Assembly (NCBI RefSeq): GCF_020905375.1 | Contig: NZ_JAJJBU010000007.1 | Location: 1-64,000 of the forward strand | Direction of reading: 5' to 3' | Length of the DNA stretch: 64,000 nucleotides | Source of the DNA: Arthrobacter cryoconiti | GTDB lineage: Bacteria; Actinomycetota; Actinomycetes; Actinomycetales; Micrococcaceae | Part shown: in pieces, positions 33,279 to 39,186 of the stretch | Numbering within the stretch: position 1 is the stretch's first letter | Layout: each line of letters opens with the position of its first letter | The notes under the pieces: model-generated | Database searches by the model: none | Told to the model about the DNA's origin: nothing | What the model saw: the letters and a program-made list of their open reading frames with translations, nothing else | Program-made: the position numbers and the translations under genes

Positions 33279-34688
33279 CTAGCCGTTGATCACTTGCGGG
33301 ACTCCTAAGGCTTTGAGACCCTCGACGCCGAACTCAAGACCGTAGCCGGATTGTTTGGCTCCCCCGAAGGGAATGCGCGGATCCACAGCGCCATGCTTAT
33401 TGATCCATACGGTTCCGGCCTGGATCTGGGCGGCCACGTCTCGGGCCGCCTCCAAATCCGATGACCAGACGGACGCGCCCAGGCCAACGTCTAGGCCGTT
33501 GGCCATGGCTACGGCTTCCGCAACGGTGTTGTAGCGAATGATGGGAAGGACGGGGCCGAACTGTTCCTCGCGGACGAGTGGGTTGTCATTGTTGATGTCA
33601 GCCATGAGCGTGGTCGGGTAGAAGTAGCCGGGCTGGTCGGCCTGAGGGTCGCCGCCGAGCAGTACTCGCGCGCCAGAATCCTTGGCCGACTCCACCAAGC
33701 GGGCCACGATGTCATATTGTTGCTGGTTTTGTAGCGGTCCCAGCACATTGTTTTCATCCAAACCCACCCCCATGGGTGCGGCTGCGGCGACACTCGTTAG
33801 TGCCTGGCAGACGTCGTCGTAGATGTCTGTGTGTACGTAAAGGCGCTTGAGGGCGGCGCACGTCTGACCGGTGTTGATGAATGCGCCCCAAAAGAGGCCC
33901 TCGGCAATGACGGCCGGATCCGCATCAGGGAGTACGATCCCGGCGTCGTTACCGCCCAACTCCAGCGTGAGCCGCTTGACGGTGTCGGCTGAGGACCTAA
34001 TGATCTCTTTGCCAGTGGCTGTGGAACCGGTAAACATGACCTTGCCGATTTCTGGGTGTGAGGCCAGCCGGGCGCCTACCTCGCGTCCTCCCGAGACCAC
34101 GCTGAGCACGCCTTCGGGTAGTTCCTTGTTGATCACGTGAGCCAGTGCCAGCACGCTCAAGGGAGTGTATTCAGATGGCTTCACCACCACGGTGTTGCCC
34201 ATGCGCAATGCGGGGGCCAGCTGCCAGACAGTGATCATCATGGGCCAATTCCAGGGGCCGATCGCACCCACGACACCGATGGGACGGTAGTAGATCTTGG
34301 CGTAGCTTTCGCCGTCGTCCACTACGGTCTCGGCATCCAGCGGGGTGCTGGCCGCTGCACGAAGCCATGCTGCGCAGGCGCCAACTTCAAACCGGGCATT
34401 CGGTCCGTTGAGCGGCTTACCCTGCTCGCGAGAGAGTATGCGGGCGAGTTCCTCGGCGTTACTTTCGATAGCGTCGGCAGCCTTATGCAACGCTGCGCTA
34501 CGAGCCTCGTGGCCCAGCGCGGCCCACTGGGGCTGGGCGGCCCCGGCGGCACTGATAGCGAGCTCGAGGTCTTCGAGAGTGTGAACCGGGGCTTCTCCGA
34601 CCTCGGCGCCGGTGGCCGGGTCCAAGATGGTGCGCCTCTCACCGGTAGTGGGCGTGATTTTGCTCAGGATGTCGGTGTGGTTTTCCAT
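33279..34688 (-). CDS. NAD(P)-dependent aldehyde dehydrogenase
   Basis: A 469-residue aldehyde dehydrogenase. The Asn-containing GAIGPWNWPM, the Gly motif FTGSTATGKEI, the catalytic Glu in LELGGNDAGIV and the catalytic Cys in GQTCAALKRLYV are all visible. The ATG at 34688 is preceded by AGGGGAGC. Given a FeaR-like regulator directly upstream and an amine oxidase nearby, it probably oxidises phenylacetaldehyde or 4-hydroxyphenylacetaldehyde to the acid. Succinic semialdehyde from the hpa pathway is another candidate. Confidence 0.9.
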   Translation of the reverse strand: MENHTDILSKITPTTGERRTILDPATGAEVGEAPVHTLEDLELAISAAGAAQPQWAALGHEARSAALHKAADAIESNAEELARILSREQGKPLNGPNARFEVGACAAWLRAAASTPLDAETVVDDGESYAKIYYRPIGVVGAIGPWNWPMMITVWQLAPALRMGNTVVVKPSEYTPLSVLALAHVINKELPEGVLSVVSGGREVGARLASHPEIGKVMFTGSTATGKEIIRSSADTVKRLTLELGGNDAGIVLPDADPAVIAEGLFWGAFINTGQTCAALKRLYVHTDIYDDVCQALTSVAAAAPMGVGLDENNVLGPLQNQQQYDIVARLVESAKDSGARVLLGGDPQADQPGYFYPTTLMADINNDNPLVREEQFGPVLPIIRYNTVAEAVAMANGLDVGLGASVWSSDLEAARDVAAQIQAGTVWINKHGAVDPRIPFGGAKQSGYGLEFGVEGLKALGVPQVING

Positions 34689-34853
34689 GAATGCTCCCCT
34701 TCGAGTCTGTGGGCCCAAGGACGGCTGAGCCGCGCCTTGCTACCCCCAGTGTTACTGGCCTGTCCCGTGCCGTCTTGTCTATGCGCGAAGTTCACTTGAC
34801 CGCGGGCGAACAAGGCCGACGTCGGCTTGGTGGGCCGGCGCGCGATAGTTTTG

Positions 34854-35816
34854 TTAGGTGTGGAGAAGCGGATGCCGGTAGCTGCTTGGCGACTCCCCAA
34901 AGGAGGTGCGGAATATGCGGCTGAAGTGGGCTGCATCCACCAGGCCCCAGCGCGAGGCGATGCTGCTAACTGGCCGGTGTGCTTGAAGGGGGTCCCGTAG
35001 CTCACGCCGGCAATTCTCTAGTCGACGGGTTCGGATCCAGCTCGCCACGCTCGTCCCGGACTCCTGGAACACCGTGTGCAGATGACGCGTTGAAATGAAA
35101 TGCTCGCCGGCAATGCTGGCCGGCGAGAGTTCTGGATCGCCTAAGTTGGCCTCAATGAAGCGGCGGATCCTGCCCAATAGTTCTTCGTGGGGGCGCTCTG
35201 CTGTGCGGGGCGAACGGTCTAGTTGAGCCGCAAATAGCGTTCCCAACAAGTCGATGATGTTGTGGGCTAGGCGATGCCCGCTGGGCCCGGAGAGGATATC
35301 CAAATTGTCCGCAAGCTCGGTCATGAAGGGGCTGATCATTCGTCCCAAGCCCTCGTCTCCTGGCATGCGCACGGCTGTGAGTGAGCCGATTGACCCAGCA
35401 GGTAAGTCAAGGGCTGTATGGGGAAACATCAACACCAGAGTACGGAAATCGGATTCGAACCCAAGTGTGTAGGGGCGGTGTGTGTCATAGATGGCTAGAT
35501 CGCCCGGGCGCAGCACGGCTTCGCGATTGTCCTGGACCAGAAGCCCTGTGCCGGAAAGCTGCAGGTTGAGTTTGTAGTACAGCTTGTCGGTGTGTGAAAT
35601 GAGTGAGGGCGTGCGGTGGACGCTGTGTCCGGTGGCGGTGACTTCGACTATGGCCAACTCATCCAAGAGCCGCGAGCGTAACCGACCCGCAAAGTGGTCG
35701 GTGTCGCTAGAGCGGACATGCAGCGGTACAAACGATTTCGAGATGAGATCGTGCCAGTCGGAGAAGGAAGCGGCGACGGCGGTCTGGACGGCATCTGTGG
35801 TGAGGGCGGAAGTCAT
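34854..35816 (-). CDS. AraC family regulator, FeaR-like
   Basis: A 320-residue activator. The N-terminal AraC-binding-like domain (residues 25-185, including LSGTGLLVQDNREAVLRPGDLAIYDTHRPYTL) is followed by two helix-turn-helices at about 215-315 (LSPASIAGEHFISTRHLHTVFQ and SIASRWGLVDAAHFSRIFRTSFGESP). This build matches FeaR, which activates amine oxidase and phenylacetaldehyde dehydrogenase genes in enterobacteria. The aldehyde dehydrogenase gene lies immediately downstream, and the copper amine oxidase gene is 0.8 kb away on the other strand. Confidence 0.88.
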   Translation of the reverse strand: MTSALTTDAVQTAVAASFSDWHDLISKSFVPLHVRSSDTDHFAGRLRSRLLDELAIVEVTATGHSVHRTPSLISHTDKLYYKLNLQLSGTGLLVQDNREAVLRPGDLAIYDTHRPYTLGFESDFRTLVLMFPHTALDLPAGSIGSLTAVRMPGDEGLGRMISPFMTELADNLDILSGPSGHRLAHNIIDLLGTLFAAQLDRSPRTAERPHEELLGRIRRFIEANLGDPELSPASIAGEHFISTRHLHTVFQESGTSVASWIRTRRLENCRRELRDPLQAHRPVSSIASRWGLVDAAHFSRIFRTSFGESPSSYRHPLLHT

Positions 35817-35928: not shown

Positions 35929-36522
35929 TTACGCCGGTCCCAGTAAGAGCAAATACGCCTCGAGTTGAGCATTTAGCTGAGCCGGAAGGTGCTGCGTGGG
36001 TGACATGGCGGCAATGATCTGGGCGCCTAGTAGCATGCTCATGAGTTGATTGATGATGTCCTCATTGCTGGCTCTGGCCGTAACCTCTCCCATTTCCCGT
36101 GCTCGAGATAAGTGTCCAGCCATCGTGTTCCGCCACTCTTCCATTGACGTCTCATGAAGTTGTGCTTTGGCTGGGTCGGTAAGTGCCTTTTGCCAAAAGG
36201 GAATCACGATGCGTGCCTCGTTGATACGGTCCTCATCCAGAGGCAGAACCTCCAAAGCGAAAGCGCGCAGAGCGGCCATGCCGGCTAGCCCGGTGGAGGT
36301 GGTGGCAATTCGTTGGTTGGTCTGGTTGAACACGTGGCCGAAGGCGGACGTGATCAGGTCGTCCTTGGTGGGGAAGTAAGGTTTTAAGGCGCCGTTTGCG
36401 AAGCCAGCTTCAGTGGCGATTTCCCGCATGGTGGCACCCTCGATGCCGTGCCTGGCGATGATGCGCCAAGTGGCATTCACTAAGTCAAGGCGGCGCTGGT
36501 GGTGGTCAACGATCTTGGGCAC
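35929..36522 (-). CDS. TetR family regulator (BetI-like)
   Basis: A 197-residue repressor. The HTH spans about residues 8-55 (VNATWRIIARHGIEGATMREIATEAGFANGALKPYFPTKDDL), with GALKPYFP in place of the common GSLYYYFP. The C-terminal helical domain binds an unknown ligand. The start is a GTG at 36522, with GGAG eight bases upstream. It is divergent from the copper amine oxidase gene across 136 nt, so it may repress that gene in response to amine or aldehyde. Confidence 0.88.
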   Translation of the reverse strand: MPKIVDHHQRRLDLVNATWRIIARHGIEGATMREIATEAGFANGALKPYFPTKDDLITSAFGHVFNQTNQRIATTSTGLAGMAALRAFALEVLPLDEDRINEARIVIPFWQKALTDPAKAQLHETSMEEWRNTMAGHLSRAREMGEVTARASNEDIINQLMSMLLGAQIIAAMSPTQHLPAQLNAQLEAYLLLLGPA

Positions 36523-36593
36523 GTTAGTTCTCCAGTCGGGCCGGGATGGCAAAAATTATGGGGTTACCCCTTGTGATGCATCTTACGTGTGGG

Positions 36594-36658: not shown

Positions 36659-38605
36659 ATGCCTTCCGCCGTCACGGACATTGAAGTATCTGCTTACCAA
36701 TTGGCCACAAGCGCCGAAATCACCGCAGTGCGGGATATCCTCCAAGGAGCTGGGCTCATGGGGGATTCCGGTCGGATCGCGTACTTGGGCCTACTTGACC
36801 CGCCTCGAAAGCGTGACACCGAATCTGCACTAGCGAGACGTTTTCGCGTCTTCCTCCACGATGTTTCCGGCGCGTCACCCAAAGACGTAATCGTTTCCCT
36901 GACTAGCGGGAGCGTTGAGTCCGCCGTCGAGCTGGAGACAGCCAAAACCGGTGAGCTACCGGTACTGGAGGAGGAATTCGCCGTTGTTGAGGAAATCTTG
37001 GCAATTCATCCCGAATGGCTCAAGGCACTTGCCGCGCGCAACTTGGACGTGTCCAAGGTTCGTGTGGCGCCTCTGTCCGCGGGCGTGTTTGAATACCCCG
37101 ACGAAAAAGGCCGGCGCATCCTGCGCGGGCTTGCCTTCGTTCAGGACTTCCCGGAAGACAGCGCCTGGGCGCACCCTGTGGATGGATTAGTCGCCTATGT
37201 GGACATTGTGAATAAAAGTGTGGATTCGGTGCTGGACTACGGAGTGGTTCCGGTGCCGGCTGAGCACGGAAACTACACGGACCCAGAATTGACAGGGCCA
37301 TTGCGGAAGAGCCAAAAACCAATAAACATCACTCAGCCGGAGGGGCCCAGCTTCACAGTCAGCAGCGGCAACCATGTGGAGTGGGAAAAATGGAGCCTGG
37401 ATGTAGGCTTCGATGCCCGCGAGGGCGTGGTTCTTTACAATATTGCATTCCAAGACGCCGACCGCAAGCGCTCTATTATCAATCGGGCCTCGATCGCGGA
37501 AATGGTGGTCCCGTACGGTGATCCCTCACCCGTTCGGTCCTGGCAAAACTACTTTGATACCGGTGAATACCAGGTGGGCCAGTACGCAAATTCCTTGGAA
37601 CTAGGCTGCGATTGCCTGGGGGAAATCACGTATCTCTCACCTGTGCTCAGCGATGCCTTCGGTAACCCACGCACCATCCACAATGGCATCTGCATGCATG
37701 AAGAGGATTGGTCCATCCTCTCCAAGCACTCAGATATGTGGACCGGGATCGACTACACGCGGCGCAACCGCCGTTTGGTGGTCTCCTTCTTCACCACGAT
37801 CGGTAACTACGATTACGGCTTCTACTGGTACCTCTACCTGGACGGCACGATTGAATTCGAGGCCAAGGCCACCGGCGTTGTCTTCACGAGCGCCTATCCC
37901 GGCAAGAATTACCCCTACGCCTCTGAGCTGGCCCCAGGGCTCGGAGCTCCCTACCACCAGCACGTTTTCAGTGCTCGCTTGGATATGGCGTTGGACGGGA
38001 CCGTGAACAGAGTGGAAGAGGAAGATGTGGTGCGTGTTCCCATGGGTGAGGGCAATGAGCGCGGCAACGCTTTTACCCGCAAACGCACCGTGCTGACGAC
38101 CGAACAGCAAGGCGTGCGGGAGGCTGACATGCGCAAGGGGCGCACGTGGGTCATCTCCAATCCGACGTCGCTGAACCGACTGGGGGATCCAGTGGCTTAC
38201 AAACTGCACCCGCAGGGTGGCCCCACACTGCTGGCGGATCCCGAGTCATCGATCGCCCGGCGTGCTGCCTTTGCTACCAAGGACTTGTGGGTCACCCGGT
38301 TTGAGCAGGAAGAGCGGTACCCCACAGGAGACTTCGTGAACCAGCACAGCGGCGGGGCTGGGCTCCCTGCTTACATCGCAGCGGACCGAGACATAGACGG
38401 ACAAGACATAGTTCTCTGGCACACTTTCGGTCTCACTCACTTTCCACGGGTGGAAGACTGGCCCATAATGCCTGTTGACGCCGTCGGCTTCAAGCTGCGC
38501 CCCGAGGGATTCTTTGATCGCAGCCCCGTCCTGGATGTCCCTGCCAGTACTCCGGGTGATTGCCACGAGAACGGGGGAGAGGGTGGCGCTCCCTGCCATT
38601 GCTGA
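36659..38605 (+). CDS. tynA: Copper amine oxidase (phenylethylamine oxidase type)
   Basis: A 648-residue copper/TPQ amine oxidase that converts primary aromatic amines to aldehyde, ammonia and H2O2. It reads as a near relative of A. globiformis phenylethylamine oxidase along the whole length. The TPQ precursor is Tyr384 in TIGNYDYG, the catalytic base Asp300 in YFDTGEY, and the copper ligands are His433, His435 (PYHQHVF) and His594 (TFGLTHF). There is no signal peptide, as in the A. globiformis enzyme. The Cys/His-ended C-terminus ([16 protein letters not shown]) is richer in Cys than the relative I recall. The last 23 nt overlap a small membrane protein gene. Confidence 0.97.
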
Positions 38606-39071
38606 GAGGGCTGTCAGCGTCTCGCAGTCGGGCGTGCGCCGGGGGTTTAGAACGCAGGCGCGGCTGTGCGCAGCCGTAGCCATCATCTCGGTGGCCGCAC
38701 ACTTATGGATGGCCTGGGAACACCGACTAATGCCATGGGAAAGTGCTGCCATGGTGTTGATGGCGGCCATCTGCTTGCCGTGTGCCATCGGGGTGTGGCG
38801 AGATGGGAGTGAACGTGGGGTGCGCTGGCTCTTCCTCATGGCTTTGGTGATGGTTGCCTGGCATACCGCAGTCGTCTTGGCCCCCGTGTCGATGGCAGGT
38901 CATGGGCATGGGGGCATGCCAAATATGGATATGGCGATGCCTGTGACCGTGCCGGGAACGGGCGCCGGGGCGATGTTGGCGATCATCGCCCTAGAGTTAG
39001 CAGTGGCAGCACTTGCGGCAGGGTCTTTGCGCCGGGTTCGCATAAATGCGAGCGCGGACGCTGGTGCCTGA
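38583..39071 (+). CDS. Small membrane protein with His/Met-rich loop (candidate copper handling)
   Basis: A 162-residue protein with four predicted membrane helices (about residues 29-47, 53-72, 81-102 and 124-146). Basic residues before helix 1, between helices 2 and 3, and after helix 4 put both ends inside, so the loop between helices 3 and 4 is outside. That loop reads [19 protein letters not shown], a dense His/Met cluster typical of copper-binding segments. The GTG at 38583 has GGGGGAGAG upstream and lies inside the end of the copper amine oxidase gene. I do not recognise a family. Copper acquisition or delivery for the amine oxidase is an inference from loop and overlap. Confidence 0.7.
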
Positions 39072-39186
39072 GCTAACAAAGCACCATCCCGGAGAGTTGC
39101 GGTTTTCGATACTCTGATGGTGGCCACAAAAGCCGCGCCCATGAACTTCATGGGTGCGGCATGGGCGGACAACGGATGAGGTCGGT

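Follow-up and report, generated by a model that had tools for sequence, protein, structure and literature searches.

A four-helix membrane protein encoded beside copper amine oxidase genes of Arthrobacter and its relatives, a candidate partner in copper supply

The amine oxidase and the gene that overlaps it

The locus considered here raises the question of whether a small membrane protein, encoded by a gene that overlaps the end of a copper amine oxidase (CAO) gene in Arthrobacter cryoconiti, supplies that enzyme with copper, as a first-pass annotation of the DNA had suggested. The window, a stretch of 64,000 nucleotides (contig NZ_JAJJBU010000007.1, positions 1 to 64,000), contains the CAO gene on the forward strand (36659-38605, 648 aa). 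Its product matches PF01179 (E = 4.8e-153) and also AGAO-like_N2, and its best PDB sequence matches are phenylethylamine oxidase. It has the features of a copper amine oxidase like AGAO, the A. globiformis amine oxidase (PDB 1AV4) of which many structures have been solved: the PF01179 domain, an NYDY motif that places TPQ at Tyr384, and the HxH ligands (HQH at residues 433/435). On the reverse strand, profile matches identify a TetR-type regulator gene divergent from the CAO gene (35929-36552), a FeaR-like AraC-type regulator (34854-35816; NF007243, 166.9 bits, under the cut-off of 199), and an aldehyde dehydrogenase (33279-34718) that would likely catalyze the step after the CAO; these are presumably the neighbors to be expected for phenylethylamine use.

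The small protein, for which the name DN was coined in this analysis, is encoded on the forward strand by a frame of 162 codons (38583-39071, stop included) with a GTG start at 38583, immediately preceded by GGGGGAGAGG. The CAO stop codon ends at 38605, so that the two genes share 23 nt (38583-38605, forward strand), an overlap already claimed in the first-pass annotation and confirmed here from both frames. Downstream of DN, in the stretch 39072-39175 (z = -5.2), a strong hairpin without a U-run (39132-39160, forward strand), missed by the terminator scan, is a possible end of a two-gene CAO-DN message.

The CAO has no signal peptide and so most likely works in the cytoplasm. The fetched DN loci contain 111 CAOs, of which six were too short at the start and 105 were usable; no hydrophobic N-terminal stretch is present in 103 of the 105, and in the two that were flagged the hydrophobic stretch is upstream of a plausible start. 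CAOs without a signal peptide would accordingly be cytoplasmic enzymes.

The 14-residue C-terminal tail of the window CAO (38561-38602) is rich in Cys and His, and the fetched loci have CHC, HCH and SCH there. Of 106 CAOs, 103 have a CH, HC, CC or CxC motif among their final 15 residues, and AGAO ends in SHCHG, while five distant CAOs (L361-L365, 24-26% identity) have no such Cys/His tail. The tail was rejected as a DN-specific tag, since tails of this kind are also found in CAOs without DN; no role for it was seen in the accessible parts of the literature examined.

Association of DN with amine oxidase genes

A profile of DN (A1, E 0.001) detected the protein at 138 places in 130 of 395 genomes sampled from the family, and a broader profile (A2, E at most 1e-5) in 165 of them; PF01179, taken as the marker of CAO, was found in 204 of the 395. 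Co-occurrence with CAO genes, which the first-pass annotation had put forward as a check on its proposal, is nearly complete on the side of DN: CAO is present in 163 of the 165 genomes with DN by A2 (and in 128 of the 130 by A1), 41 of the 204 genomes with CAO are without a DN match, and 189 genomes have neither (Fisher p = 2e-68, relatedness being ignored in this as in all Fisher tests here). The two genomes with DN and no CAO are G297 and G386. Counted by genus (32 in all), DN occurs in 21 and CAO in 24. In the window's genus, DN is present in eight of 23 genomes and CAO in ten, among which are all eight with DN (CAO in 8/8 genomes with DN versus 2/15 without, p = 9e-5), and the eight CAOs of the genus that are 82-100% identical to the window CAO all have DN directly behind them.

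Adjacency was scored on the fetched DNA and the eight loci of the genus; the PF01179 table gave only 150 CAO places. DN is directly behind CAO at 98 of the 138 places and head-to-head with it at 17 (15 within 500 nt); at two it is further behind on the same strand, at two in front, and at 19 no CAO lies within 3.5 kb. Ten of these 19 have a CAO approximately 3.6 to 8 kb away, which brings 129 of the 138 within about 8 kb; the gene is not common away from CAO genes, and the opposite is what the first-pass annotation had named as counting against its proposal. No CAO is present in the stretch read around the other nine (G247, G103, G209, G386, G199, G277, G297, G238 and G002), of which the DN of G238 is a fragment and that of G002 a likely false match. 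Where DN is directly behind CAO, it starts 20 nt or less from the CAO stop in 94 of 98 cases and overlaps it in 54, a count biased toward overlap by the rule that DN starts at the earliest ATG or GTG from 60 nt upstream of the CAO stop; L284 and L326, with odd CAO ends, were scored as directly behind despite gaps of 284 and 186 nt. The vicinity of CAO and DN across these differing arrangements shows that their link outlives rearrangement.

Across 104 pairs, the sequence identities of DN and CAO are correlated (r = 0.73, 0 of 500 permutations), and this correlation, to which relatedness contributes, is support for the pairing and not proof of it. Three genomes (G029, G221 and G201) possess two DN-CAO pairs each: the two DNs within one genome are 24-35% identical, and each shares more identity (41-52%) with DNs from elsewhere, in most cases ones of matching arrangement, the exception being L212 (G201), whose best-matching DNs are of the head-to-head type.

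A scan of genome contigs gave 63 named loci, 62 of which entered alignment A4 (L273 was without a protein); some of them are shared with the family sample, and the two sets are not independent. Nearly all are from Arthrobacter, Pseudarthrobacter and Paenarthrobacter, with Specibacter cremeus and Georgenia thermotolerans also among them, and CAO is directly in front of DN in 57, opposite in one, further off in one, and outside the fetched stretch in four. At L315, from A. globiformis NBRC 12137, the CAO matches 1av4 (AGAO) over all 638 residues, and DN starts 9 nt behind the stop codon of this AGAO gene. A sample of 296 genomes of the phylum contains DN in six and CAO in 31; five of the six DN genomes have CAO (p = 5e-5), and these five include the window genome and another of its family. 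Beyond the family, the strongest match (G467, E = 7e-20) is beside neither of the CAOs of its genome, and the matches in G527 and G673, where DN and CAO are apart, and in G588, where there is no CAO, are weak (2e-5 to 9e-4).

Some individual loci are of separate interest. At L164/L298, a DN has no CAO within about 10 kb, and its neighbors are frames that we take to resemble NADH dehydrogenase and cytochrome b of the bc1 complex. A head-to-head DN with an internal stop (L216, G004:C47:10938-11162) is perhaps a decaying copy; the same genome contains an intact pair as well. L334 and L335 contain weak DN-like matches (E = 2e-5 and 2e-4) that lie inside longer frames rich in Met or His, and L334 also carries frames that are presumably DUF305-like and cation-efflux-like. 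A single plasmid record, that of Paenarthrobacter aurescens TC1, matches DN (34% over 51%) at a position with no annotated feature.

Fold, conserved residues and relation to known families

The AlphaFold2 model of DN, built with the window protein and 62 relatives, has helices at residues 14-46, 51-74, 77-99 and 126-161, with a mean pLDDT of 82.5, a pTM of 0.67, and scores of 56-64 for the blocks covering residues 101-130. Over 87 relatives, the mean number of K+R per sequence is 3.94 in the N-terminus, 0.17 in loop 1-2, 1.98 in loop 2-3, 0.28 in loop 3-4 and 3.64 in the C-terminus, a bias which by the positive-inside rule would place both ends inside and the His loop (residues 103-121, codons 38889-38945, forward strand) outside. 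A protein of four helices with an outward loop, as described in the first-pass annotation, is thus supported by the model for its helices and by the charge bias for its orientation. Judged by the predicted helix ends, H94, H40 and E138 would be placed in the outer half of the membrane, M90 near the middle, and C64 and C67 closer to the inner face.

A filter for length and CxxC left 145 of the 155 DN sequences collected; removing redundancy reduced these to 90, of which 87 were aligned (alignment A2, mean column identity 16%), L194, L199 and L228 being excluded. H40, C64 and C67 are each present in all 87, the CxxC figure being partly due to the filter; M90 and H94 are present in 86, H109 in 85, H107 in 83, and E138 in 75, with Asp in another ten. 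Among the 138 unfiltered rows, C64/C67 are found in 100/98% of the 98 directly behind CAO, in 94/94% of the 17 head-to-head, and in 94/94% of the 19 without a nearby CAO, in which E138 is down to 47% (Asp 47%). In the 87 relatives, H, C or M occupies every one of the seven most conserved columns (hypergeometric p = 2.3e-7, with H, C and M at 21 of the 162 positions and the C columns partly selected by the filter). MxxxH occurs in 85 of the 87, and MxxxMxxxH in 60.

The 19-residue loop in which the first-pass annotation had recognized a His/Met pattern is present, and its histidines are conserved, but its methionines are not: 66 of the 87 relatives have no Met at positions 104-129, six have at least three, and loop Met is mostly confined to the window's genus. 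A strict HxH is found in 64 of the 87, the His pair of the loop being spaced differently elsewhere. Judged from the alignment, the loop is a conserved His pair to which Met is a local addition, and the strongest signal of DN is in residues that the first-pass annotation did not name, namely H40, CxxC, MxxxH and E138 of the helices.

DN has no significant match in Pfam (the window protein and 87 relatives) or NCBIfam, its best match in PHROGs has E = 0.11, no PDB sequence is significantly related to it (best E = 0.06), and none of 152 Foldseek matches to PDB folds reaches E 0.001. Assignment to DUF5134 (PF17197) is not supported, with no match of the window DN or of the 87 relatives at E 0.01 and an hhalign probability of 6%, and neither is kinship with a five-helix protein found behind other CAOs (1.8% profile probability). 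The 7TMR-DISM family was set aside (E = 0.11 for the window DN, 8e-4 for one relative, and E 0.01 reached by four of the 87): its scores are under the curated cut-off where one is shown, and are read as generic helix similarity.

By sequence DN is in none of the described copper importer families tested, and it may work like those of the CTR, CcoA or CopD type. The CTR proteins of eukaryotes resemble DN in being small, with an outer His/Met region, a Met motif in a helix, and Cys/His near the inside; they differ in having three helices that form a trimer, as opposed to the four predicted for DN, which has no match to the Ctr domain in Pfam. CcoA and CalT, which are MFS copper importers, are like DN membrane proteins tied to one copper enzyme with Met/His ligands in helices, but according to the accessible text CcoA has 12 predicted helices, the seventh and eighth of which carry the motifs MxxxM and HxxxM (PMC5829832). 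The modeled DN has four helices and not the 12-helix MFS fold, its MxxxH and MxxxMxxxH are similar to these two motifs yet different, and it has no MFS match at a curated cut-off, with just one of the 87 relatives reaching E = 0.0096 against an MFS molybdate model. For YcnJ, the available part of PMC13344008 describes an outer capture of copper and then a conserved His in the membrane domain, with a copper enzyme that needs YcnJ at low copper. The same order would hold for DN as proposed below, but CopD/YcnJ proteins have an outer domain where DN has only a loop, and DN matches neither CopD nor CopC.

Membrane proteins other than DN are also encoded behind CAOs. When 93 CAO loci, which had short flanks and included some CAOs twice, were scanned by a rule of thumb, non-DN proteins with a His loop were found behind some CAOs, and many other CAOs showed none. 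At L017/L078 such a protein overlaps the CAO, and at L248/L100 and L096 five-helix proteins with a His loop are 1 and 43 nt behind it. Hydropathy predicts five to six helices for the five-helix type (L017:953-1507, L248:5179-5808 and L096:2830-3414), of which the L017 copy has no Pfam match, and which may be distantly related to DUF5134 (66% by profile comparison). DUF5134 is itself behind CAO at L022/L087 (L022:657-1313) and L024 (L024:3592-4275), the CAOs of L022 and L024 being approximately 46% identical to that of the window, and is a possible second copper partner. Like DN, DUF5134 has helices with a His/Met loop, and in G009 and G005 it follows other CAOs, but its invariant residues are different and its profile comparison with DN gave the 6% probability stated above; it is often elsewhere, with a CAO fragment within 1.5 kb in two of 13 family matches.

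A proposed route for copper and its alternatives

DN quite probably handles a metal for CAO, and that it brings copper in is somewhat on the probable side of even. The reading that we favor, with modest confidence, is that DN is a dedicated protein for the uptake of copper and its hand-over to a CAO without a signal peptide. The outward pair H107/H109 would capture copper, which would be passed inward first by four residues of the helix bundle (H40, H94, E138 and M90) and then by C64xxC67 nearer the inner face. The apo-CAO, made beside DN, would take the copper at its three-His site and then make TPQ itself, and the Cys/His tail of the CAO may help to receive the ion. The copper delivery suggested by the first-pass annotation is partly supported and, in its main point, strengthened: linkage to CAO (163/165 genomes, 129/138 places) and the conserved loop histidines speak for it, and the absence of the loop methionines from most relatives speaks against that part of it. 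Weighing against the favored reading are the 41 genomes with CAO and no DN match, the two with DN and no CAO, the nine DN places with no CAO in the stretch read, the DN matches of G467, which is apart from its CAOs, and of G588, and the presence of Cys/His tails on CAOs that lack DN.

Metal-type residues and linkage to CAO would be equally expected if DN moved copper outward, or buffered it at the membrane, and so protected the cell during CAO synthesis. Nothing in the DN sequence fixes the direction, and a weak relative in G588 (E = 2e-5) is near genes that we take to be DUF305-like and cation-efflux-like; nevertheless, DN is paired with one enzyme and not with copper-resistance genes, and it contains no ATPase, RND or CDF signature, so that export or buffering appears unlikely. 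The overlap or very close spacing of the two genes (94 of 98 starts within 20 nt, under a start rule that favors overlap) would also suit a membrane dock or assembly partner of CAO with a metal site that is structural or holds, for example, zinc. A cytoplasmic enzyme would dock at the inner face, whereas the conserved H, C and M residues are in the helices and the outer loop, and a docking function is quite unlikely.

Two conserved His residues at similar depth in two helices could instead make DN a small heme or redox protein, with H40/H94 as axial ligands and the CxxC as a thiol pair, handling H2O2 or the electrons of amine oxidation. The weak Foldseek matches do include designed heme four-helix bundles (5vju and 8d9p, E = 1.1 and 1.4), but none is at E 0.001 or better, there is no CxxCH, and such a role would have no need of M90, E138 or the outer histidines, which makes it very unlikely. 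The least probable of these alternatives is that DN is a mere passenger of an amine-catabolic cluster, unconnected with copper: at several places DN does have transporters and regulators of these clusters as its neighbors, but the pairing persists through different arrangements and the best-conserved columns are of metal type.

Copper supply by DN would be compatible with what is reported of the Arthrobacter CAO HarA, for which the available part of PMC6345859 describes the addition of Cu2+ to minimal medium to obtain TPQ-containing enzyme in a foreign host. If DN was absent from that host, as seems probable, a partner would not be essential when copper is plentiful, and the copper requirement of HarA fits a partner needed at low copper. 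In agreement with the first-pass annotation, which knew of no such partner, no DN-like partner of a CAO is described among the matches listed from the open-access literature, to the extent that its text was available; most subscription papers are outside this scope, and a mention elsewhere is possible. The terms 'chaperone' and 'copper delivery' are absent from the accessible text of a review of AGAO biogenesis (PMC3382800). Bacteria are thought to avoid cytosolic copper (PMC5171941, accessible part), and a review, likewise available in part, considers it likely that further, uncharacterized copper importers exist (PMC7558416).

More tentatively, and at a less than even chance, DN may found a family, so far undescribed, of copper importers reduced to four helices and dedicated to one cytoplasmic enzyme, with a route from the outer His pair through M90/H94/H40/E138 and the CxxC to the apo-enzyme. 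Other CAOs have, at the corresponding place, at least one further and sequence-unrelated kind of His-loop membrane protein (DUF5134 and the five-helix type, perhaps its distant kin), so that pairing of this sort would have evolved on more than one occasion. The quinone-copper enzyme AGAO has been much studied, and a conserved DN gene is located 9 nt behind its gene. DN makes both the copper supply of CAOs and the question of uncharacterized importers testable in a laboratory soil bacterium, and it might help in making active amine oxidases.
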